Assembly (NCBI GenBank): GCA_015179125.1
Contig: WHVA01000007.1
Span: forward strand, 372,001 to 436,000
DNA from: Gautieria morchelliformis
Taxonomy: Eukaryota; Basidiomycota; Agaricomycetes; Gomphales; Gomphaceae
Direction of reading: 5' to 3'
Length of the DNA: 64,000 nt
Part shown: positions 42,390 to 63,929 of the stretch, one piece after another
How the letters are laid out: each line of letters opens with the position of its first letter
Position numbering within the stretch: the stretch's first letter is position 1
The notes under the pieces: model-generated
The model's database searches: none
What the model saw: the letters and a program-made list of their open reading frames with translations, nothing else
What the model was told of the DNA's origin: nothing
Position numbers and translations under genes: made by a program

Positions 42390-43234
42390 AGTGGAAACAG
42401 GAGGACCCACAGGTACTGGGGCATCATAGTGGCTTCATACGCGGACAGCCACGCAGTAATCTCCGCCTGTAACTCTGAGAGCACCTCCGTGGGGCAACTT
42501 CGATTGTTTAACCCATTGTCAACAGGTCACTACGAGCTTGGCAAGGACTACCTTTCTGCACACGATCCCAGGCTTCTTCCCACAGCTGCGATCCTCTTGG
42601 ACATACCTCTTCCAACTTCTTTTTCAAGAAAGCCTCACTCATCCGCCGGAAATACCTTGCTCGGAAGATTAATAGAACAAGCACACGTTGGCATTTTCTC
42701 AGAAACAAGCATACGGGAGGCTTTTGTCGTTCAGGAAAGGAAGGAAGTTAGGTGTCCATGTGGGGGGAGGATGTCGAATATTGCATGCTTTATAGGGTGG
42801 TCAATAAAAAGCGTTTGGAAGGCTTTGGTACCCGGTGGAAACAGAATGTTTTGATTGGGATAGATCTCGTCAAGGTACTCTGCAATCGCCCAAGAATCAG
42901 GTATAACTGTAGGATCCCCAGCCGACGTGAGGTGACCAGGATCGACGATAACGGGAATGGTGTAGAACCATTTTCGAGGACTAGGGCTATCGAAGAAAGT
43001 TGGAGCTGCGCCCATACCACGTAAGGTAAGCTCGATATTGGGGTACTCGAGCCACACGGTCTTGAAAGGGAGTCCCGTGAAGTTCAGAGCTAATCTGCAA
43101 ACAGTATTATTGTCACCGCCAAGTCAACATAAAATCTTAGGATACACTGACCTGGCTCTCAAGCTCATTGGGTTGCAAGGGTTGCCTGTACGGCTTGCAG
43201 TGTCATAGAGCGTGATACAGGAATTTTCGACCAT
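42390..43234 (-). CDS. Glutathione S-transferase (Ure2-like/GTE type)
   Basis: Cytosolic enzyme joining glutathione to electrophiles. Exon 1 (43234-43152) encodes MVENSCITLYDTASRTGN and ends at a 57-nt intron. Exon 2 (from 43094) encodes the thioredoxin-like domain: LALNFTGLPFKTVWLEYPNIE, a YTIPVIVDP block and PDSWAIAEYLDEIYP, which binds the glutathione glutamyl group, then FPPGTKAFQ. A C-terminal helical part follows near 42700-42540 (YFRRMSEAFLKKKLEEV). The junction at about 42750 does not resolve cleanly and could be an intron or a frame error, so the 3' end (about 42390) is approximate. A second copy of the promoter, exon 1 and the first bases of exon 2 lies upstream at 43480-43792. Confidence 0.75.
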
Positions 43235-43792
43235 GGCGGACGGCAACTGCGATCGTAACTTACTCCACCCGACCTCCCTGAATCAGTTATGATGCGTCAG
43301 TGTGAGCGGTGACCCACAGACCCACAGCGTAATAAGACGCCACTGGCAGAGCAGTATAAAAGAGGTCATCTCCAGCTTACTGTGGGTGAAATGCTTACTT
43401 ACGTGGGCGCGACAACGGATCCACAAAACTTTGCTCAGGTGGTGCACAGAGCTCACTCACTGCAAGGCACGACATGATAGGGAGTCCCGTGAAGTTCAGA
43501 GCTAATCTGCAAACAGTATTAATGTCACCGCCAAGTCAACATAAAATCTTAGGATACACTGACCTGGATCTCAAGCTCATTGGGTTCCAAGGGTTGTCTG
43601 TACGGCTTGCAGTGTCATAGAGCGTGATACAGGAATTTTCGACCATGGCGGACGGCAACTGCGATCGTAACTTATTCCACCCGACCTCCCTGAATCAGTT
43701 ATGATGCGTCAGTGTGAGCGGTGACCCCCAGACCTACAGCGTAATAAGACGCCACTGGCAGAGCAGTATAGAAGATGTCATCTCCAGCTTAC
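43068..43792. repeat. Tandem duplication of the GST 5' end
   Basis: 43068-43380 and 43480-43792 are 313-bp direct copies differing at about ten positions. Each holds the upstream region, start codon, exon 1, intron 1 and the first 26 nt of exon 2. The 99-bp spacer (43381-43479) is itself similar to 52186-52296. Confidence 0.9.
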
Positions 43793-44041
43793 TTCAACCC
43801 AGCCCGAAGGCAAACCAGCTTTCTTGCAAACCAACAACGCTTATATCCGTACATAACCTATCACAAAAAAAAATTCTTCTCCAACTCTACTATCATCTCG
43901 CTCACCTGCGTTGCTGGTTACGCCATCTTCGCCTCCGCCACTGCTAATGTCAACGAATGCTCCGTCATTCACTCACTGTAGAAAGAATAAGCGCTATATT
44001 TCAGTTCCGCTTGCACTACAGCTAAATTACAGTACCGATTT

Positions 44042-44180
44042 GTACTGAAATTTAGTCCCCAAAAAATAATTTCATACAGCACTAAAAATCAGTACTATAC
44101 AAGTACTGAAATTTAGTCCCCAAAAAATAAATTTCATGCAGCACTAAAAATCAGTACTATACAAGTACTGAAATTTAGTA
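44042..44180. repeat. CACTA left subterminal repeats
   Basis: A 61-62-bp unit (from GTACTGAAATTTAG through CACTAAAAATCAGTACTA) occurs twice in tandem plus a partial third copy. Confidence 0.85.
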
Positions 44181-44226
44181 CAGGAAAAAATGCAAAGTCC
44201 AATGACGAAGGAAATTTTTTTTTTAC

Positions 44227-47200
44227 CTAATCAGGATCAATCTCTGGATCCACAAACACCGTCCTGGCGAAATCGCCGCTTCTGTCCACTATGCCCATTC
44301 ATTCCCTCCTCGCTTCACGCGCCCGATGACGCATTCCACGGTACGCAAATCGATTACTACAGAGACCCTCGTCTCTGTGTATGTCGTTACCTCACTGGTT
44401 GCATCCTTCCCACCAGTTGAGCACGGCTGCACAACAGCTAGGAGGTGACGTTTGGGAGTTGGTAGGTTGAGAGTGTGTGAGGGCGCTAGAATAACGTCGA
44501 TGATGCTAAGAAGTTGTCCATAAAACACGCGTCGCACCAACACGGCGAACGCGATGGTTGGGGACCATTAGCGTATACTGTATCAAAGTTGTCCTATTAA
44601 TTGAATACACAGATAAATAATCCAGGACGTACTCGGACAAATGAGGAGTCACGCGTGCCCTTGGCTTGGGTGACGCTCACCGCGCACGATGCTCTGATTT
44701 TGTCCCCTCCATTGGCTATTCGCACCTTGCCCCAACGTGTCATGGTCTGCGGGAGTTTCGTGTCGATGTAGCGGGCCTCACACTCGTAAATTTGCGCAAA
44801 ATAGAGGCAAATTCGTCGCCTCAGGTCTTGATCGGGTTGATATCCGAGCCTGCGTGGTGAACGGAGGATAGAGTGCAGATCTGTAAATATCACAGTGAAC
44901 CAGAAGCACCAAGAACATAAAAAATGACTTACATTCAGGGTACAGTGTCTCAGTTGCGGTGAGTGCACCTTCTACTGTCTCCGCGCTCAGATGCTCCCAG
45001 ACTCGCGCATAACAAGCCTTCAGCTCGGACAATTGCGCTGAGCGTCTGATGTACATACTAAGCGTTGCATATGGGTGGAGTCGGGAATTGATGCGCGATG
45101 CCAACTTCCCACAGAAGCGTTCCATTGGGAACGCCCAAAGCGTCCATGCAGGGCCGCAACGCCGTATGTAATCCGTAATGTGAAGCATCGCGTGAATGCT
45201 GAACGTACAAGCCGGCAAATTGGTTTCTTGATATTTGTAGTACCAGCTGCCGATGTGTCAGATGGGTCAGAAGGTTGCAATTAACAAGCCACTTACTGTT
45301 CATATTGTTGAACCCAAATCACGATCATTTTTTGCAACTCGTCAATTTCTTCCTCAGTTATCGTGAACAGTAAGCACTTTTTGATAATTTTCACCAAGTC
45401 ACAGAAATGACGATAATATTTGGCGTGTGGGAAACGATCGCGCAGGAGAACCGGCCTATGTATTGAAACCAAAACGAGGTGTATTCCGCTTTGTACTTCG
45501 AATTGGTAATATCTGGGAGTGCACCAACGAATTCAGAAGGTATGGTCTTGTACGCTTCTGCCGTCTCACGCCCTATGACTTCCCAAATGTGAGGGGCGAT
45601 GCGATACCCTGCGTCTGCCGGCTCAACATGTTTTAACTTACCCGATCCCGCCCAATGTTCAAGTAGACGGTGCACACGTTCTCGAAGAATAGGTGCATGA
45701 TGTCATGGGGGAAGGAGTCGGGGAAATGGAGGGAGCGAATATCAAGGACATCCGATAAACGATTGATCCCGTAATGCAATCCTAATGCTTCTTGATGTCC
45801 GCCTGTGGTACCTTCACTGATCTCGACTAAATGGCTATCTAGATTCTCACGTGTGCGTGGCGGAAGGTTATAAGGGTCCCATCCATCATCATGTGCTTCT
45901 CCTGGACGCCGGGGAGCCTTTAAAACTGGATAGTAAGTCGTATTCTTGTTACCTGCATGGCTTAATTTCTCCCCTCGGATGAGGCAAAAACGGCACGGAC
46001 AAAAGGCCTTGGCCCCCTGAGGCACAGCAATTTGGACATTGCCGGTAGATCGCCGGAGATCATGATTAGGTACTCATGTAGATCAAAACTTGTTTTAGAC
46101 TCAGCATCGTACGTCCGTATGCCATGCGCGAGTTCGGCAAGTTCTTCATTCAAAGGAATGAAGAACGAATCCAGATCCTTCGGGCTGTGGGGTCCAGGGA
46201 TAACACCAAGCGGGATGAGGTTTTCAATGTGCATCCGAATTTCAGGTGGGAGGTTGAAATTGACCAGTATAATTGGCCAGGCTGAATTGCTTTTAGATTT
46301 GCCATAGCAGGCCGGATGGCAAAAACCTGTAGAAATCCCTTATAAGGTTGAGTACTATTTACCAAGTAATTATGAGTACTAGCCTGGAAACCGTCTGTTG
46401 AAGCCCCCAGAGCAATGTCACGTCCGTCTGAAAAGTACGTGTGCCTCAGCTCGGAGCCGTCGACTATGACTAACCTCTCGAGCAGATCTCGGTAAACAGT
46501 GCCGTCAAGACGTCACTGATTTCGCCTGGCACAGTAACCCGTCGGCTCCGATATTGCAATTTCTTGATCATCGGCAGGGACTCGTACCATGCTTTTATGC
46601 GAGGGATCAGGGGTAGGTACGACCACCTTGCGATAGGTTTGCCATTGGTATGGTATCTCGGGGCTTTGCAGTGGGGGCAGTGTGTGAGGGCGGCGTGTCG
46701 TTTGACGTACAGACAACAAGATTTATTGCACATGTGTAAAACCGTGGTGTCACCCCTGAGAGAATCTCCATTCGGCGATAAACCAGATATTCTGTGTCTA
46801 ATTTTAACTTGTGCCTAAAAAACCGACGGAGGTTGTTGTATGTAGACCTCGAGAGCCCACTCCCTTCGAGTCGCAGAGTGAAAACACTGATGTTGTCGAG
46901 GTCCTCATCCGTAAGTTCATTGTCCCCTATGCAGTAGATTAGATCTGATCACAGTGATATACTTAGAGGATTGACGCTCACGAAGATCATGCAGCTGCTG
47001 CTGCCACACATCGCGAATCGCTCCTGAAGCACTTGGATGAGATTCTCGTCGGTGATCTCATCAGGTTCAAGTTCTTCCTCCTCTTCTTCAGTTGCAGAGG
47101 CTTCCACATCAGGTAGTTCCCCTTCATCAGCCGATTATGTTGTTCTGCTGCTCACGGATTGCTCGCCGTCGAACTCTATGTCAAGATCCATTGAATCCGA

Positions 47201-47445
47201 ATCCTGATGAATCCAGTCCTGAGGCTGGTCCTCAAGTGCTTGATCAGGGGATCGGTCCATCGAGACGCGTCCTTGATCATGGTCGTTGTCGGCTAGACTG
47301 TCTGATGTCGATCAGTACCCTCACCCGATGAGTCAATAGCGAGGGCTAGCGCATCCTCCAAGAGTTTGCGGTGACGATATCGCTGTCGACGCGAGAGTCG
47401 TAACGTACACGAAGGAATGCAGAGACACGGCTGCTTGTCCACCAT
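44227..47445 (-). CDS. Plavaka/tnp2-type CACTA transposase
   Basis: Multi-exon transposase with an RNase H-like fold expected. From ATG 47445: Cys-rich start (KQPCLCIPSC), acidic linker (TEEEEEELEPDEITDENL) and LTDEDLDNISVFTLRL near 46900. Then a zinc-binding CKAPRYHTNGKPIARW region (about 46670), LIPLGVIPGPHSPKDLDSF (about 46210), a CPCRFC motif (about 46005), HFPDSFPHDIMHLFFENV (about 45690), HAMLHITDYIRRCGPAWT (about 45190), FYGQLLSIIDVIL (about 44525) and RTVECVIGRVKRGG (about 44310), with a stop near 44227. The last block needs a one-base shift (near 44288), and the acidic N-terminal part also changes frame near 47310, so this copy is probably inactive. It cuts and reinserts the element in the family. 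Confidence 0.85.
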
Positions 47446-47499
47446 GGTATGGATACGCGTCACTGCCTTTTTTTCCGTAAGTTTTTGATTCTCCGCTGC

Positions 47500-48560
47500 T
47501 TATATTGTTGCGTGGTCATCCGTACCATAGGAATGCGTCGCTCCTAGACGAAAGCATGAACAGCGTTATGTTACGGGAGTCGCGTGGAGCTGGTGACAAA
47601 GGTATATTCCACAAAAATTGCGCCGAATGTGTATTTCATCACTACTCTCAGAGAATGCTCTCGTGCTCTGCACCGCCGTGCCCACTCTTCCTCGTCTCGC
47701 TTCTCCACGCCGTCCTCCAGCCCCGGCCCTTGCATGGTCACTGCATCGCGTCTTTCTCGTTTTCTGTTTGGCCCTGAGTTCGTGTTCCTTGTATGAGATA
47801 TTCAGAATCCTTCATCCCTCCATATTCGATCCTTCCCTTCTCCACTCATTTCTTTTTCTTCAAGTGCTGTCCGCAGATAATGTGGACCTCCAGCAGTCCT
47901 TCCCATTCCTGATTCGCCCAATCTCCTCCCGAACCGCCGCTTTGCTTCCCGGACACATCTCCAGGCTTGCTTGGCTTTGGCCAGGGTGGGCCCCCGTTTC
48001 CAGTGACAATAATCAACAGTATCGCAACAGTGTGGACATGAAGGTGAACCTCACGCCGTTGGCTGGCAATTCTACGTCTTCACTCTGCTGTCCACCAACG
48101 GCTTCCCGTCACCGGCGTGCGCAGGCTCGGGGTGAGTGCACAATACCATTACTGCATGGTCTGTTGACGAATACACCAATGGCGCCGCACCAAGATATCC
48201 AGCCGGGGACCACCGCACCCTCACCGCCACTCTTCGAGCTGAGCTGCAGCACACGGCGGTTGACGGTCGTAAGCGGCGGGACCAGGTCGGGCAGCTGCCA
48301 ACTGATCATGCACGACGTATGCGGATCGTCAGGCCCGACGGTGCAGCAGTGTATAGCTAGCTACCTTGAATTTGATGGGCGTGACGGCTACGCCTGTGGA
48401 CCTGAAATGGGTGCCAACGTGAGCAGGTACGTGCTTGCCTTGCCATGTGGATTTTTAAAGGGGGGGGGCGGGTGGGGCTGATTCGAATCGAACCCGCTTG
48501 GACTCACAGTCAAATCCGCGTACTATTCCTTGTTTCTTCTCACTTCTCCTCATCGTCGAT
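47500..48560 (+). other. Unassigned region inside the CACTA element
   Basis: One long plus frame (47618-48360) is Ser/Pro/Arg-rich and shows no domain. Possible exons are present near 48020-48130 (reading MKVNLTPLAGNST). It may be the 5' part of the gene whose HTH fragment follows. Confidence 0.3.
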
Positions 48561-48573
48561 CGCTGATTCATAG

Positions 48574-48860
48574 GAAACCTAGATTTGATGATCTCGAGCT
48601 TGTTATTAAGCAGTGGGTTGAGGGGATGAAGCCTCAGGGTGTTATCCTATCGGACGCCCTCATTTGGTGCGCCATATTTCTTGTTTCTGATGCTCGTGGT
48701 TGAGTCTTGCCTTTGTCTGTTCGTTTAGCTCCAAAGCCAAGGAAGAAGCTCGGTGATTGGGAATACTGGAGGATAAGTTTAAAGCGTCCTCCGGTTGGCT
48801 TGAAAATTTTAAGCACCGGGTAGGTATTCGCAAAGGCAAATATGAGCTTGTAATTGGGGC
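48574..48860 (+). pseudogene. CENP-B/pogo-type helix-turn-helix domain fragment
   Basis: Plus strand, exon 48574-48666: FDDLELVIKQWVEGMKPQGV, the first helices of an HTH_Tnp_Tc5 domain. After a 62-nt GT...AG intron, SKAKEEAR, then a TGA, then DKFKASSGWLENFKHRVGIRKG, the diagnostic end of this DNA-binding domain. The TGA inside the domain and the lack of a DDE nuclease make it a fragment. Domesticated relatives are sequence-specific DNA-binding proteins. It lies between the two genes of the CACTA element. Confidence 0.75.
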
Positions 48861-49084
48861 GGGGGAGGGTGGGGGTATTAATAACAAAGATGCATATATA
48901 AGACATATCTCTCTCTCATGCTTGTAAACTAAGTAAATTTGGTGACATAAGTATACCTAAATATTGAAAGCCAGCGGAGGCAAAGTTCCATACGTGGCTG
49001 CTTACGTTTACAATACTCAGTCGCTTCCTACCACCACCACCACCTTCCTTCGGTGCCCTCAACTACATAGCTCAGCTTATACTC

Positions 49085-50436
49085 ATGGATCGCATACTCG
49101 ACGACCCCGCGAAACTACAAGGTAAGTGCCCTCTGCCTACAGCCTTCGTCATTCCATTTCTTATCACCTCCATACTTCCGCACAACAGAGCTGTTTCAGG
49201 CAATGGCATCCAGGGGGATGGATGCACAAGCCGTCTGGAAATCTGTGTCTAAATATAAGTCTATCTTATTATTATCACATCCATTTCGAATGCGTATGGC
49301 CGATCAAAGCGCTGATCCAACAGTTCCTCAAAAATAGCTCAGAGCTCAAACGTGCGTCTGCAAGGCGGCGAGAGGAACGATTGGCCCGCCTGCCATGTGA
49401 GGAGCCTCAAGCCCTCTCTGTTGCCAATACTAGTAAGAGTGCAGTGCCAGTGTCCTCGAGCAAGTTCACCATGAGCAAGTCGGCTTCTGCGAAAAAAAAA
49501 ATTCCTTCCAATGTTTCTTCAGCGAGTGCCAGTAACTCTATGACCAAGTCTACGTCAACTAGAAAGTTGGGTTCTGTGAACAACGGGACTGCCTCATGCA
49601 AGGGTTTGACGACGGGTGCCGGGAAGTCCTCTGAGCCAACTCACAAGGTGCGTTTATTATTGTATATCGTAATTCTATACCTAATCAGTGAACATGACTC
49701 GCTCGCGCAAGGGTTCGACGACGGGTGCCGGGGAGTCCTCTGAGCCAACTCGCAAGGTGCGTTTATTATTGTATATCGTAATTCTATACCTAATCAGTGA
49801 ACATGGCTCGCTCGCGCAAGGGTTTGACGACGGGTGCCGGGAAGTCCTCTGAGCCAACTCGCAAGGTGCGTTTATTATTGTATATTGTAATTCTATACCT
49901 AATCAGTGAACATGACTCGCTCGCGCAAGGGTTTGATGACGGGTGCCGGGAAGTCCTCTGAGCCAATTGGCAAGGTGCGTTTATCATTATATATCGTAGT
50001 TCTATACCTAATCAGTGAACGTGACTCTCGCGCAAGGGTTCGACGATGGGTGCCGGGAAGCCCCGTGCAAATTTTCGTTCAGTGGGCAATCATGACCAGG
50101 CCACCAGCTCGATGAAAAGGAAGACACCAGAGGATGGCGAAACGTCTATTCCAGTGGCGAAATGCTATAAAACACTGGAGGATGTGCCAGCTGTAAGTAC
50201 ATTCACCTAGCCGCCTAACAACTTACACTTACTTGCTTCTAGCCCATGCATGCCAAAAGGGTAAGTGAACCATTTGTTGTATATATCAGTGTTAACAGCT
50301 ACAGGCTGCCTCGAAGGCCGGTGCGACAAATAAATCAGCGCCCAGGAAAACGGCTCCCAAGAAAGCCGACCCTGAGCCCAGGAAGTCAAAGCGCCAGGTT
50401 TGTGCTCCTGCAAGACCTGATGCCGACTACGAGTAG
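49085..50436 (+). CDS. Basic Ser/Lys-rich protein with tandem 45-nt micro-exons
   Basis: Nine exons: 49085-49121, 49189-49258, 49338-49647, 49712-49756, 49821-49865, 49930-49974, 50037-50192, 50243-50260 and 50305-50436. They total 858 nt, so 285 aa, in frame with GT...AG introns. The start region reads MDRILDDPAKLQELFQAMAS. Exon 3 is Ser/Lys-rich. Its last 45 nt, the three 45-nt micro-exons and the start of exon 7 are repeats of GLTTGAGKSSEPTRK. Each micro-exon plus its intron is 109 bp, and the donors at 49648, 49757, 49866 and 49975 keep exact 109-bp register. The C-terminus is Lys/Pro-rich (APRKTAPKKADPEPRKSKR), suggesting a nuclear or DNA-associated role. It lies within the CACTA ends and may be its accessory (TNPA-like) or a captured gene. 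Function unknown. Confidence 0.75.
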
Positions 50437-50689
50437 ACACCTCGTAACATCCCTTTTATATCTATGCCACTTTTAACTGATTGCTAACCCATTAGTTGTT
50501 ACCGCTTGCACTCTCCCTACCGACTCTGGCTCTTCACATATGCTCTTCAATGACCTAGCTTGGCCCGTTCATACTACGCTCATCGGTTTACTGCTCTTAC
50601 CCTCACTCGCTCTGACATCATCGGTGTCATTCACTAACTCGTCTCTGTCCTGTTTCCATCCGGTAGCCAATAATATGTGTACCTAAAAA

Positions 50690-50926
50690 TCAGTTCTTAA
50701 TGTACTTTTTATTAGTCCTAAATAAGCTAGAATTCAGTTCATTTTGAGCTAAAAAAACAGTGCAAAGTGGGACATTTTCACTACTAGAAATCAGTTCATG
50801 GTCAAAGGGGCCGAGAACGCTTCGGGAGCTAAAAATCAGTGCTCAAGTACTGATTTTTAGCTGGTTTTGTACTGAAACTCAAGTTCCGTTTCATCTGATT
50901 TTTAGGTGCCGGCGCTTTCTGCAGTG
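50690..50926. repeat. CACTA right subterminal repeats and inverted end
   Basis: Several copies of CTAAAAATCAG in both orientations, including a perfect inverted pair around 50829-50862, then the terminal inverted repeat ending CTTTCTGCAGTG at 50926. Confidence 0.85.
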
Positions 50927-52640
50927 CACTGGTAGCAGCGGAAAACACCTTTACGATAAACGTCGCTGGGGTTTCATGACAGACGCTAGCGAGTCTACCA
51001 TTTGCGGCCACTCAGCCAGCGACATTCATCGATCAGCCTCATCATTTTCCACCAACGTCGTCAGCAGCGTCGACTGTCACACAGCGTCTTTCGGTGGCGA
51101 CCAGAACACCATACCATGTCCCTCACTGTCACCCTCGACAAGCAGCCGCCGGCCGTGCAGTTACAAGCGTTGACCAATGGCATAACTGCTGCCTTCGGGA
51201 CGGCGGGTGTCAGCTTCCCCAGCAGTGTTTGCGACCTATCTGGCGTCCCCAGCCGGACATCCCGTAAATGAAGCACGGTAAGTCTACTAGGCTGTCTGAG
51301 CTGGATCGAGCTTCACCGATTTTATCCGGCAGATGGGTACCATCGTCTGCAGGCTGGATATATGAATAACCCTAATAGGCCTGTCATCGGTGTGGAGAAT
51401 TGTGAACTGATTGATACCTTGGATGTTATATAGCTGTGGATAAAATGTATGCTCGTCATCAATCTGAAAAATGACGGGGTGACGTGATTTGCGAAATTGT
51501 GGCCAAAGTTGTGAAACGACGGTAAAGTAAATTTCAGAAAGAAAGAAACAGGTCTGATCCCACATATCATAGGGTTAGTGCGGAACTGCCAGACGGACAG
51601 GAGACGAGTGTGATGAATCAAATCGAAGCCTATTCTGCCACGGATGATTGGGCGAGGGCTTTGGGGGGACATTAGGAGGGTGGTGCTATGTTTTGTGAGG
51701 CTGCCACCAGGCGGAGTTGTTGAACTCTTTGGAGGTTTGGGGCTTGTTGGGGCTTGTTGGGGCTGGGAAGTGGCTGGATTCGACTTTTGGGCGACGGGGC
51801 TGGTGAAACGCCCGTAAATACAGCGGGCTTGCAGGGTCATAGAGGGAGACGCAGGTGGGGAACGGGGATGAGCCATTTGCGGGCGGATTGGTACGGGACG
51901 GTTCGGAAGTGGATGGCCACGGACGCTCTCGGGGCTTGATAGGATTTGGAGAAGGATTCCTTGGGGACTATACGGTTGGTGTCCGTTAAGGGATTACTGA
52001 TGAAGCACGACAGGGGGCATTGGAGGGTCTAGCCTGGCTGGAAAGTTGGGAGGGAGGATGGACAGGTACCGCGTTTGGAGGTCTGGTAGCGGACTGCTTT
52101 AAGGATGGTATCTGGGCAGATGTTAACTAGTCAGAAAAGCTGCACGTGGGAGCTCATATCTATAAGTGCGGGATAGACCGCATGGGTGAAATGCTTACTT
52201 GGGCCGTTGCGGTCATCCAGGTGTTGTGGGCACAACAACGGATCCACGAAACTCTGCCCAGGTGGTGCACAGAGCTCACTCACTGCAAGGCACGACATGA
52301 TATGTAGCCGCATAGCCTCTGAGGCACGGACCCAGCTGTAAGTATTACCGTACCTACACAGCCACATCGACGGGCGCTTCACCTAGACGCCGGGCACACG
52401 TCACGTGGGCAGTGAAGTGGCATGTCTTCGATGACAGGTTGGAAGTACGCAGTACCACACGGCGCCTCTCGTCGTCTTTTGCCACCTACCACCCACCTCC
52501 AACACTGCGAACAATGAACAACGTTAAGCGCAACGATAAGGACACAGTAGCGTAAGTCCACTATCACTTCTCCAGTGAGCCAACTGTTCACTCTCCTCCC
52601 CGAAGTATTCCCGCAGCAATCAAAGTTGCAGCAAAGGCTC
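50927..52640. other. No confident gene; flank of the CACTA insertion
   Basis: Peptide-like stretches occur at 51117-51270 (plus, starting MSLTVTLDKQPPAVQLQ) and at 51290-51560 (minus), without a recognised family. 52186-52296 repeats the GST spacer (GGGTGAAATGCTTACTT ... GCAAGGCACGACATGATA). Confidence 0.35.
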
Positions 52641-57706: not shown

Positions 57707-58185
57707 TGTAAGGGCAACCCTGGCTAGTCGTGGAGATCACACTACCACACAACTGACAAGGGGAAATCCAAAGTATGTATAATGAACAGAGCATACAAGA
57801 GAGGGGGTTCTCACCTGACAAGGGGAAATCCAAAGAGAAAAGTCTAAGGACCCCCAATGTCAGCGAGCCCGTATTATACTACGCTGCGCAGCCAGGGACA
57901 ACGCTTGGCACCCGCCATCAACCCTGCATCCCCCTGACCCTTGATCGACCCTTGATGCCACCTATTATGCGAGTCGCTTGATTTCCGACACTGTTCCGGG
58001 GCGGAAGTCGGAAATTGGAGTGGAACTGGCAAGGCGAACGGAACTGGTGGAAGTTCTCCCAGAAGCGGAATCGTTCCTGAAAGCGGATGCGGAGATGGAA
58101 TCGGAACCGGAAGCGGAGTCGGAAATGGAGTCGGAACTGGGTGTGGTGTCGGAACTGGAAATGGAAAACAGGGTGTCCCCTGACA
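57707..58185 (-). repeat. 3' LTR of gypsy chromovirus
   Basis: On the plus strand TGTAAGGG to CTGACA. Contains GACAAGGGGAAATCCAAAG twice and a long run of GGAA-spaced words (58010-58165). Confidence 0.93.
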
Positions 58186-61100
58186 TCACCCCCCTCTAGC
58201 GTGCTGCGTCCTCGAAGCGCGGGACACAAGGGATTGAAATGCCAGCGAGCGGATTCGGCGAGGGGCACCTGGATGTGTCCTGTAGAACTCCCGGAGTTTG
58301 TCAGGAGTGGAAACATCTTGCTCCGGGACCCACGAATTCTCCTCGTACCCATACCCTTCCCATTTCACGAGGAATTGGAGTCGTCCTCGCACAAACCGGC
58401 TGTCCAGGATCCGTTCTACCACGTAGTGCTCTTCCCCATCTACAATTTCTGGCGGAGGTGGCGGATGAGCCTTCCGACGTGGAATTGGGTCCTCAAGCAT
58501 AGGGAGTAACTTCACCACGTTGAAGACGGGGTGGAGGCGGGACATGGACATCGGAAGTCGGAGGCGGTATGCATTCCGTCCAACCCTCCGCGTCACTGTG
58601 AAGGGCCCAAGGTAGCGGTGGGCAAGCTTCTGCGAAGGGCGTGTGGTGCGGATGTCACTTGCATCTAGGTACACCTTGTCTCCAACTTGGTACTCTGGGG
58701 CAGGAACCCGGCGTCGGTTGTAGTACCTTGCCATGTCATCCTTGGCCTTCGCAAGGGCCGACTTGGCTTCCGAAAGGGTGGAGTCCATGCGGTCTCGGAA
58801 CTCATTGACCGTCTCGAGTCGGGAGTCGCCTGGCGTGGTTCGAAGCCCATCCGCGGGTGTCGTCCGGAGTCAAGCATGAAGGGAGTCTGTTGCGTGGCGG
58901 AATGGACATGGTTGTTGTATTGGAATTCCGCCAGCGGAAGTAACTCATCCCAGTCATCCTGCCTCTCATTGACAAAGAGGCGGAGATATTGCTCCAACTC
59001 CTGATTGACCCGTTCCGTCTGTCCGTCACCCTGCGGATGGTACGCTGTGGTGGTAGCCAGCTTTATGCCGAGCAGGCGGTAGAGCTCCCGAGTCAGTTCC
59101 GCGACAAACTGCGGACCTCGGTCGGAAACGACTTGCTTCGGGAGCCCATGCAACTTCCAGACATGTGCAAGGAACAGGCGGGCCGCTCCGAGGGCTGTGA
59201 TCGTCGTGTGCGTCGGAATGAAGTGGGACACCTTGCTCACCGAATCCACGACGTTCATGATCGCGTCGTAGCCATGAGACTCTGGGAGTTCAACGATGAA
59301 GTCGACACTGATGGTGTCCCAGCGGGATTCGGGAATCGGGAGCGGAACAAGTTCTCCGACGGGCGGACGTCGTTGCGCTTTGGTTCGGAGACAAAGGTCA
59401 CACGTCTTCACGTACTGTCCGATGTAGCGGGACATCTGAGGCCACCAGTAATTCCGAGCCACTAACTCCAGCGTCTTCCACCTGCCAGCATGCCCAGCGA
59501 CCCGTGTGTCATGGTGCTGGGACACGATGCGACGGCGGAGGTCCGCCCCACCCGGAACATAGACCTTGCCTCTGAAGTGGAGCAGTCCATCACGTTCCGA
59601 CCATTCCGCTGCCCGTACAGACCGTGAGTGCCCCTTCCGGAGTTCCTCCACTGCCTTCACCACCGACTCCTCCTTCTCTCCATTCCGGTACTGCCTCCGG
59701 ATATCCCGGAGCATTTCCGCTTCCGCCCCAACTGCAGTTACTCCTTCTAGGGCACGGATTGCAAAGAGACTTGGGCGGAGCAGTGTCATATCCGCGTTGT
59801 CTCCACTTCCGCTTCCGTGATCCGCGCGGCGGGATAGGGCATCGGGCTTGCCCATGGTGCGGCCAGGGCGGTGGTGGAGCATGAAGTCAAACCGGGACAG
59901 GTGTAGGGACCACCGTGCTTGTCGTCGGTTCAGCTTTTAGCCATGCGGAAATACTCGAGGTTCTTGTGGTCTGTCCAGATCTCAAATGGGCATAGAGCAC
60001 CCTCGAGGAAGTGTCGCCACTCCTCCAGCGCTCGGATGATTGCCAGCATCTCCTTGTCATGGATCTCATAGTTCCGCTCGACCGGACTAAGGCTCTTAGA
60101 GAAGAAGGCAATCGGATGCCACCCCCACCATCTTCCGATGACTGCTGTGACAAGACCGCTCCGGTAGCTGCGTCGGAAGAATCCGCCTCGACTCGATAAG
60201 GGCGAGAGTCGTCGGGAAAGATCAGGACCGGGCGGAAGTGATCAGCTCCTTGAGTTTGTCAAAGGAAGTCTGTTCCGGCTCTCCCCACTGCCATCCAACC
60301 TCCTTCTTGGTGAGGTCGAAGAGGGCACGGGCGTGGCAGGAGAAGTCCTTGATGAACCGCCGGTAGAAATTGACAAACCCAATGAAGGACTGGACCTCCT
60401 TCTTGTTTCGCGGCACGGGCCAATCCGATACACCGGAAACTTTGACTGGGTCCATTTCCACCTTTCCTTCCGACACAATCACCCCAAGATACTCTATCCG
60501 CGTCCGCTCAAATTCGCACTTTTCCGGCTTGAGACACAGGTTGTACTCCCGGAGCCGTTCCAGCACTCTCCGCACGACTTCCCGATGTTCGGACATTGTT
60601 TTCGTGAAAATGAGGATGTCATCGAGGTAGACGCAGACAACCCCTTCTGCTATCATGTCACGGAAAATGTCATTCATCATCGTCTGGAATGTGGCGGGAC
60701 TGTTGGTGAGGCCAAAGAACATGACCTGTGGCTCAAAGAGTCCTCGATTGGTGCGGAATGCGGCCTTCCACTCGTCTCCCTCCGGATCCGGACATTGTTG
60801 AAGCCCCAGCGGACATCCAGCTTAGTGAAGTACCTCGCCCCGCGGAGTTGTGTGATCAGTTCGGAAATGAGTGGAATGGGGTACCGGTTCTTGATCGTGA
60901 TCGCATTCAAGGCCCGGTAGTCCTGCACAAGTCTGAGCGAGCCATCCTTCTTCTTGATGAAGAACACCGGAGATGCCATGGGTGACTTGGAGGGGCGGAT
61001 CCTCCCTGTACGGAGATTTTCCGCAAGGAACGCATCGAGCTCTACCTGCTCCTTGGGTGACAGCGGGTAGACCTTGCAGTTGGTGGGCTTTGACCCAGGC

Positions 61101-63449
61101 TCCAACTCGATGGCGTGGTCCCACAGCTTCCGTGGAGGCAGGGTATCAAACGACTCCTTGGAAAAGACGTCCTCGAACTCCCGCAGGTACTCCGGAATTT
61201 CCGCCTCTACTCTATCATGCCTCTTGAGGCTTCAGCAAGGCGTTGCGAAATATTTCCGGTGGCGCGGATGTGTTCCGCTTCCGGCGGAAGGTTTACGTAC
61301 AGCAAGCGCTCCCCTTCCGTCAGAATGTCTTCCGGCCGAGTCGGATGACGTCGGAATCGGAATCGGAATGGAAGGGGATCCGGTTCAAATTCCGCTTCCG
61401 AGTCTTCTTCTGCAAGCAGTGGATGGGGGCCGGAACGACATGTCTGTATGAGCCGTTCGTCTTCCGCTGCTCCTGGCGCTCCTTCCGCACTTCCGACCGG
61501 CACATGTGACACTTGGCTGGACATCGACTCATCAGTACCTTCCGAGTCTGCCAATTGATCTCCGGGTTGTGCTCCTGAAGCCAGGTAAACCCGAGGATGA
61601 TGTCTTGCTTCCCCAGGCTGGTGACTGCAAAGGAAGTGCGTTCCGAGTGTCCATCGTAGCGGAGAATTGTGTCCACTATCTCCGTGATGGACCCTGCCTC
61701 ATTGGGGCTTCCATCCACATTGACCACCGGGATTGCACGTTGCAACTTCCGCGTGGTCAGTCGGTTCCGTTCCACATAGTCCCGGTCCATAAACTGACCA
61801 GTGGCCCCGCAATCGACAAGGGCGGGTCCGGATTTGACTTCCGCCGTATCGGTCGTCTGAATCTCTACCTTAATGACTAGTGACTTGGGGCCAGGGGTGG
61901 CAGCAACAACATAGCGCTTCGGAAGGCGTCTCTCCCAAGGGCGGATGCGGGATGGACGGGGTGTCAGATTTGGTTTTTGTGCGACTTTATCCGGTGGGTC
62001 TGTACGAAGTGAGGGGAGTGGGGGCTTTTCATTCTCTACTTCAAGACAGGCAAACCGGTTATGTACAGGCAGCAGGGGCACACATCTCACCCGCTGCGTG
62101 TCACAAAATCCGACGCATCTTCCGCTTCCGGTAGACCATGTTCCGCATTTTCGGAAAGTTCTTCCGCAGTGGGCACTCCGTTTATGTCTGCAAGTGCGAG
62201 GAACTCTGGAAGGATCTCGAGTTTCTCCTCTGTGGTCATAAGCCGGATATCAAAGGCTTGGGGGCACTCGCGAGCATAGTGGCCTGGTTGTCGGCAGCGG
62301 AAGCAGGTGATAGTTCCGTGGCCTTTTCCGCGCATGCGGTCAACATCCATCGGGGCAGGGCCACTCTTCGAGGGAGGAGGGCTATGGTTCCTAATAGGAG
62401 CAGGCGGAGCAAGCATCGGAAATAATTTCCGTGTGGGAATGAATGCGCTTCCGGGTTTTGGCACAGGTGGAGTAGGACGAGCGGAACTGCGTGTCGTGTT
62501 CCGACTCGTTTCCACGAAGGCCTCATTTGCGTCCCTGTTCCGAGAAACCTTCTGCGCGGCTTGGTACCACCCTTCCGGGTCATCAAAATCCGGAGCTCCA
62601 TCCCCAAGCAGCGCAACTTGGTTCTGGAGCGTCGGATCAAGTCCTCGTCGGAATTTGATGACGATCGTCTTGTCGTCGTCATATTCCGCAAGGTCGATGA
62701 GCTCCTGGAAGCGATCGATGTAGTCATCGACCGGATCTTTGGCCTGGTACCAGCTCATCCCCTCGAGCTTTGTAAGGGCTGTGAGCTGCTCGTTTTTCGG
62801 GCAGAACTGGTCGGAAAATGTTTTCTCGAACGCGTCCCAGTCCCGGAAGTAGTTCCCCTTGCCCTTTGCTTCATGTCGGATAACCTTGTTTGCAAAACGG
62901 GCTGCGCGGTCCGATTTGAAAAAGGACAATGTCCAGTGAATCCGAGCCTGGTCGTTCGGAAAGAGGTCTCCGACAATTGCGAAGTAGATGCTGCATGTGT
63001 TGAAGAATGCACGTCCCTTCTCCCGATCTCCGTCAAAGTCCGCCGGAGTTGCGGGTTTGACCTTTGCTAACTTCGCGGACATCCTCTTTTCCGCTAGTTC
63101 CGCTTTTCCGAAATCTGGATCGTCCAGCATTTCATTTCCACCACCTTGTGGAGTATCTAACTTAGCCAAAATCGCTTGTAAGGCTGTTTCAATCGCGTCG
63201 GTCTTCATCCGGTTCCGCGTCAATTCCTCCTCCATATTCCGAAGACGATCGTCCGGATCCATGTTGGAAGGAGAAATATGGGACGGGATTTCCGGGGTTG
63301 GGAGCTCGACGTAAGAAGAGGGGCTGTCGTACGCTGTATGTGCGGAAGAGGTTGCGATCTCCGAGTCGCTGTCTCCGATTCCGAACGCACCTATGGCGAA
63401 TGCAACGTGCAGTACGACCACCGGTCCTCTAGGGGAGAGACTTTTCTGC

Positions 63450-63929
63450 TGTAAGGGCAACCCTGGCTAGTCGTGGAGATCACACTACCACACAACTGAC
63501 AAGGGGAAATCCAAAGTATGTATAAATGAACAGAGCATACAAGAGAGGGGGTTCTCACCTGACAAGGGGAAATCCAAAGAGAAAAGTCTAAGGACCCCCA
63601 ATGTCAGCGAGCCCGTATTATACTACGCTGCGCAGCCAGGGACAACACTTGGCACCCGCCATCAACCCTGCATCCCCCTGACCCTTGATCGACCCTTGAT
63701 GCCACCTATTATGCGAGTCGCTTGATTTCCGACACTGTTCCGGGGCGGAAGTCGGAAATTGGAGTGGAACTGGCAAGGCGAACGGAACTGGTGGAAGTTC
63801 TCCCAGAAGCGGAATCGTTCCCGAAAGCGGATGCGGAGATGGAATCGGAACCGGAAGCGGAGTCGGAAATGGAGTCGGAACTGGGTGTGGTGTCGGAACT
63901 GGAAATGGAAAACAGGGTGTCCCCTGACA
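63450..63929 (-). repeat. 5' LTR of gypsy chromovirus
   Basis: Partner of 57707-58185 with about three differences, including one single-base length difference. The same GGAA-rich block lies at 63745-63910. Confidence 0.93.

Follow-up and report, generated by a model that had tools for sequence, protein, structure and literature searches.

A 109-bp array of mini-exons and predicted introns varies in unit number among copies of a CACTA-type transposon of Gautieria morchelliformis

Background

The multiplication of introns is a long-standing question for which few recent cases are available. Among the closest described systems, the LRR genes of Tetrahymena are built of tandem 90-bp exons of uniform phase 2, and unequal crossing over is proposed for them (PMC6564038). 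In potato, a duplication across an exon-intron boundary added an intron (PMC4974935). CACTA/En-Spm elements, including fungal and SmTRC1 types, are described with TnpA/TnpD proteins (PMC1636069). A literature search retrieved no CACTA exon-intron array by title or shown abstract, most subscription papers lying outside its coverage.

In the present study, we analysed a stretch of 64,000 nucleotides of the Gautieria morchelliformis genome (contig WHVA01000007.1, positions 372,001 to 436,000 of the forward strand), hereafter called the window, whose positions are used throughout, and compared the exon-intron array that it contains with other copies in the same genome. Within this single genome, the same gene is found at different sites with 0, 1, 2, 3, 4 or 9 units, next to a comparable series in a second family.

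Results

A tandem array of 109-bp units was delineated at 49598-50060 using TRF (109 bp x 4.3, 94 % matches), with a score of 814, so that it cannot be attributed to chance. The sequence-only reading of this DNA had reported donors 109 bp apart, delimiting phase-0 exons of 45 nt and introns of 64 nt (62 nt for the last one); both statements were confirmed, the former by GTGCGT at exactly 49648, 49757, 49866 and 49975, the latter by coordinates and translations (GSTTGAGESSEPTRK, GLTTGAGKSSEPTRK and GLMTGAGKSSEPIGK). Three separate stop-free exons follow unit 1, which is fused to the upstream exon, and the introns (64, 64, 64 and 62 nt) all start with GTGCGT, contain CTAAT and end with CGCAAG (Table 1). 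When the window array is read unspliced, stops are met in all three frames; the coding frames reach the array and resume after it, and are joined only when the introns are removed. Judging from the sequence, the array introns are presumably spliced. The net charge of each window unit ranges from 0 to +2.

Table 1 Features of the array-bearing element, in window positions (introns are predicted)
Feature	Coordinates	Strand	Remarks
Copy of a CACTA-type DNA transposon, with CACTGTAGAAAG at the left end and CTTTCTGCAGTG at the right end	43974..50926	.	Ends common to many copies
Transposase_21 (tnp2) homology in fragmented transposase gene	45965..46339	-	Pfam PF02992, E 1.7e-18, 67 bits against a cut-off of 28.6
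Accessory gene, first coding exon (MDRILDDPAKLQ)	49085..49121	+	Counterparts in C184, C165 and C783; donor GTAAGT at 49122
Intron 2 remnant: mutated donor and deletion junction at 49282-49284	49255..49284	+	
Exon A, made up of a conserved stretch (WPIKALIQQFLKNSSE) and a basic tail rich in Ser and Lys, unit 1 at its end	49282..49647	+	
Exonic part of unit 1 (GLTTGAGKSSEPTHK), continuous with exon A	49603..49647	+	
Array intron 1, 64 nt, GTGCGT...CTAAT...CGCAAG	49648..49711	+	
Unit 2 exon, 45 nt (GSTTGAGESSEPTRK)	49712..49756	+	
Array intron 2, 64 nt	49757..49820	+	
Unit 3 exon, 45 nt (GLTTGAGKSSEPTRK)	49821..49865	+	
Array intron 3, 64 nt	49866..49929	+	
Unit 4 exon, 45 nt (GLMTGAGKSSEPIGK)	49930..49974	+	
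Array intron 4, 62 nt	49975..50036	+	
Exon B: unit-like GSTMGAGK first, then PRANFRSVGNHD	50037..50192	+	
18-nt exon PMHAKR	50243..50260	+	
Last coding exon, basic C-terminus, TAG stop	50305..50436	+	

The array had been placed inside a CACTA element, an assignment supported by the PF02992 match, the inverted ends and the boundaries found in multiple copies. On the left side, the start falls within window 43967-43981 in 32 of the 41 match rows and coincides with 43974 in 21 of these; on the right side, other copies stop at or beside 50926 in 40 places (40 of 86 candidates scored). With both ends recurring across copies, the element is dispersed and multicopy in the genome. Terminal inverted repeats are present (CACTGTAGAAAG on the left, the right end reversed being CACTGCAGAAAG) and begin with CACTG. 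CACTA terminal inverted repeats begin with CACT(A/G), the CACTG variant included, and insertion of these elements is marked by a 3-bp target-site duplication. CACT flanks both element ends and is also the terminal motif, which leaves the exact boundary ambiguous. Open pieces of the fragmented transposase gene are scattered over about 44600-47000, and a DUF4218 match at 44781-45257 (E about 0.004) remained under the curated Pfam cut-off. The shared ends and the minus-strand tnp2 fragments led us to classify the element as CACTA-type. The array-bearing accessory gene is located on the plus strand, i.e. opposite to the tnp2 fragments, and three conserved-region pieces of its protein gave no significant Pfam match, the best one being PROCN (E 0.15, below its cut-off).

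Further repeats were noted in and around the element. Repeats rich in AAATCAGTACT (62 bp x 2.2, TRF) are found near the left end, at 44042-44179, and the last 148 bp of the right end (50779-50926), which start with CACTACTAGAAA and end with CTGCAGTG, resemble a small separate element, but the sequence on either side of this piece is common to copies. To the left of the element, a 300-nt direct repeat is present at 43063-43362 and 43475-43774 (97 %, starts 412 bp apart), and an 82-nt piece at 43403-43484 recurs (91 %) on the right of the element at 52226-52307. A stretch resembling an LTR retrotransposon, with RT- and integrase-like frames recognised by eye, occupies 57707-63824 on the minus strand and is bounded by near-identical direct repeats (57707-58080 and 63450-63824, 99-100 %).

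Unit number was then compared between copies of the element within this genome, a check proposed by the sequence-only reading, and ranged from 1 to 9 across ten copies. The array query matched 11 contigs, of which ten copies (window included) were countable, i.e. 28 units; C970, whose array is interrupted by other sequence at the last intron, the partial copies C344, C409, C745 and C436, and C228, consisting of the 3' end only, were excluded from the counts. One unit was found in C356 and C349, two in C247, C165, C313, C783 and C278, three in C184, four in the window and nine in C537. The distant copy C513 has zero units, exon A continuing directly into exon B.

All exons of the 28 units are stop-free, in phase 0 and multiples of three, with a length of 45 nt in 26 units and 54 nt in the other two. 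Introns of 64 nt predominate (20 units), the others measuring 67 nt (6) or 62 nt (2), and the donors read GTGCGT (19), GTGCAT (7) or GTGTGT (2). GT-AG ends and CTAAT at one position were found in 28/28 units, GT and AG partly by construction, since a script delimited the units with a donor motif and with an AG motif; CTAAT position, exon length and open frame are independent of these motifs. A plain alignment search performed without splice motifs recovers the same arrays. That repeat number can change without breaking the frame, as had been claimed, is borne out by the in-register variation of the ten copies and by a second family with units of 81+48 nt (see below). The 54-nt exon is that of the one-unit copies C356 and C349 and encodes three extra residues (GSKSK end).

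In the flank tree, the window and C537 are sisters (support 0.606) and form a clade with C970 (0.996). C537 is the closest countable copy to the window, with nine versus four units, and the two copies occupy different insertion sites, similarity ending at the element ends. Their last units (unit 4 of the window and unit 9 of C537, exon and intron) are 98 % identical, the inner units numbering three versus eight; inside C537, units 2, 4 and 5 are identical, as are units 1 and 7. Identical units in C537 together with a last unit shared with the window are expected from whole-unit unequal exchange or slippage. The identity of these C537 units might also be taken as a sign of repeat collapse or expansion during assembly, in which case the unit numbers would be artefacts, but we hold this to be highly improbable given that other units carry distinguishing bases, that the graded series comes from ten copies at different places and that the distinct last unit is at the same place in the window and in C537.

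In the four partial copies C344, C409, C745 and C436, exon A is retained over about 140 nt and the 3' end follows directly. Nearly the same stretch is absent from all of them (to about 50614-50664, similarity being lost after 50764), a pattern resembling the spread of a single deletion derivative.

Relatives of the gene were also found in other element families. A protein search with exon A retrieved many distant relatives in the genome, mostly at 34-42 % identity (range 29-62 %), and the PRANFRSVGNHD motif of exon B has counterparts in C405 and C140. In the same part of the gene, C405 carries two phase-0 units, each pairing an exon of 81 nt with an intron of 48 nt. Such 81+48-nt units number one in C1, two in C405 and three in C836, these three copies having been read; two of the three units of C836 have frame-breaking exons of 80 nt. 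Over the 21 contigs of the C405/C1 family, five were assigned one unit by match extent, ten two units and one three units, five being unclassified. With blastn, the C405 unit gave nothing against the window unit beyond chance-level matches of 14-16 nt (E 0.037 and 0.27), and its 27-residue units have a net charge of +3 to +4. The second array would be independent of the window-type array. The intron between the two C405 units starts with GTCCGT like the downstream intron, its remainder being like the upstream one. It looks like a chimera, as expected if the duplication breakpoints fell in both introns.

At this place, one mini-exon of 54 nt is seen in C140, with introns of 61 and 54 nt on either side; exon B of this copy contains a frame break. 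C820 and C663 display in-frame exonic minisatellites in the same tail (18 bp x 2.7 and 27 bp x 2.9). Taken together, the C405/C1 arrays, the C140 mini-exon and the C820/C663 minisatellites indicate that several families have a tail prone to repeats, and the multiplication of exon-intron modules seems to have taken place at least twice.

The origin of the intron itself was considered in the light of C513, whose flanking exons are joined without intron and with one copy of the unit start. Were this intronless state ancestral, the intron could have been born de novo from a tandem duplication of coding DNA (Rogers-type). In line with such a birth, the final 29 nt of the 67-nt introns resemble the coding sequence that directly precedes unit 1. 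A register-fixed test over 23 nt (the last 6 being left out), covering the six units with 67-nt introns out of the 28, gave 15-17 identities in four of them, no more than 1 of 20000 shuffles doing as well. On the other hand, C356 and C349 reach only 4/23 in the fixed register; shifting by one base raises these to 12/23 and 16/23, values equalled by 102 and 0 of 20000 shuffles, respectively, and free local alignment of the last intron with exon A is weak in most of the ten copies (13 to 396 of 500 shuffles as good). Moreover, C140, C405, C1, C820 and C663 have an intron at about the array position, with position and phase 0 judged by eye, which makes the intron look older than the family and favours an old intron part becoming exon, a reverse event that fits the matches equally well. 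The C513 state could also come from recombination between repeats, and the placement of this copy in the tree is too weak (support 0.563) to tell gain from loss. Overall, we judge de novo birth of the intron to be unlikely.

The sequence-only reading further held that the choice between an early and a late acceptor decides between a full-length and a truncated protein. One part of this claim stands, since all 28 units of the ten copies contain an early AG with TGA directly after it. The switch itself is not supported: the likely branch A of CTAAT precedes the G of the early AG by 4 nt, and the late AG by 25-30 nt. According to splicing rules, an AG 4 nt from the branch A is too close for use, which renders a switch of acceptor unlikely. 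As the window gene is in addition deleted upstream, we regard a role of acceptor choice in setting protein length as extremely unlikely.

A nine-exon model in frame for 285 aa had also been proposed. Although this arithmetic is reproducible, exactly 285 aa were obtained from five splice combinations over the ranges scanned in the window copy, and the model does not attest an intact gene; all five combinations use the conserved first donor at 49122, whereas the donor that opens the second intron in the relatives is used by none of them. The latter donor, GTAAGT in the relatives, is lost in the window, where it reads ATAAGT (49255; AAATATAAGTC versus AAATGTAAGTC in the relatives). An internal deletion is also seen at 49282-49284, where C165 and C783 have about 880 nt and about 760 nt more, respectively, including additional exons that separate exon 2 from exon A. 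C184 and C247, with only about 124 nt more than the window at this point, appear to carry deletions of their own. The deletion of C537 differs from that of the window copy, both copies being devoid of much of the upstream gene. The N-terminal part of the window gene is a deletion junction and not an intact gene, and the window copy is most likely dead. The window, C537, C278 and C313 keep exon A open along the 105-aa query.

Divergence between copies was assessed on the 20 units of 45+64 nt, the 8 units of other lengths being left out, and reached 8.1 % in exons versus 6.7 % in introns (153 between-copy pairs, which are not independent). Codons with a single difference comprised 373 non-synonymous and 92 synonymous cases in the same pairs, and nothing in this exon-intron comparison of 153 pairs points to purifying selection on the repeat in these copies. 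CpG-type transitions represented 303 of the 559 exon differences and 359 of the 656 intron differences. Altogether, CpG to TpG/CpA changes amounted to 662/1215 differences, i.e. about half, as cytosine methylation or a RIP-like process would produce. As exons diverge no slower than introns, the copies look like neutral fossils, decaying remains of a gene that was presumably coding while mobile.

An ordinary non-coding 109-bp minisatellite with coincidental splice signals would likewise have exons evolving no slower than introns, and many of the copies are decayed. Such a minisatellite is nevertheless very unlikely: the frames before and after the array are joined only by intron removal, CTAAT and the exon frame are kept in 28/28 units, mini-exons are also found in homologous genes of other families, and exon A has homologs at the protein level.

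Discussion

The array is probably best explained by a symmetric mini-exon and its intron, tandemly duplicated in the basic tail of the second, non-transposase gene of a CACTA-type element, unit number then being changed by unequal recombination or slippage. Once two 109-bp units were present, unequal recombination or replication slippage would add or remove whole units in register. With an exon length divisible by three and a donor, branch site and acceptor of its own in every intron, the array would keep the frame of the mRNA, and about 15 residues (27 in the 81-nt units) would be gained or lost at every step. Transposition would then freeze each state, so that the insertions come to form a graded series of 1 to 9 units. 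Several steps of this multiplication may be read from the copies, namely whole-unit gain, chimeric introns, donor change and possibly loss by recombination.

An intact copy would make the accessory protein, whose basic, low-complexity tail is probably disordered and might help DNA binding, in analogy to TnpA of plants (PMC1636069). The array also represents a route by which the length of a transposon protein may change without frameshift. One may go further and regard the tail as an evolvable length dial, modules being multiplied repeatedly and independently at one fixed place in different CACTA families, and recombination and exon skipping supplying, in active copies, in-frame variants of tail length that tune DNA binding or transposition. 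We give this proposal little credence, and as long as no active copy has been demonstrated, the mostly decaying state of the copies speaks against adaptation.

As regards known systems, the element resembles CACTA/En-Spm transposons by its Transposase_21 domain, its inverted ends and a second product beside the transposase, and differs from them by its CACTG ends, an accessory protein without significant Pfam match and an array in the tail of this protein, whose TnpA-like function would be an analogy only (PMC1636069). Many short exons are also a feature of the Schistosoma micro-exon genes, which have long introns and encode secreted proteins, whereas near-identical 109-bp units are arranged head to tail here (PMC10526429). 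In fission yeast, another case of fungal introns tied to within-gene tandem repeats, the gained introns are tandem repeats reaching into neighbouring exons, in contrast with the whole intron per repeat of the present array (PMC3629103). The potato case shares with this locus a boundary-spanning duplication yielding an extra intron with ready-made signals, but concerns one new intron in a host gene, as opposed to up to nine units in two transposon families (PMC4974935). As in the Tetrahymena LRR genes, the exons form arrays of one length and uniform phase, with a unit number that differs between close paralogs. These exons are, however, of 90 bp and phase 2 in Tetrahymena, versus 45 or 81 nt and phase 0 here, and belong to thousands of genes, often beside a retrotransposon, versus a gene carried inside a DNA transposon, in ten counted copies and 21 contigs of a second family (PMC6564038).
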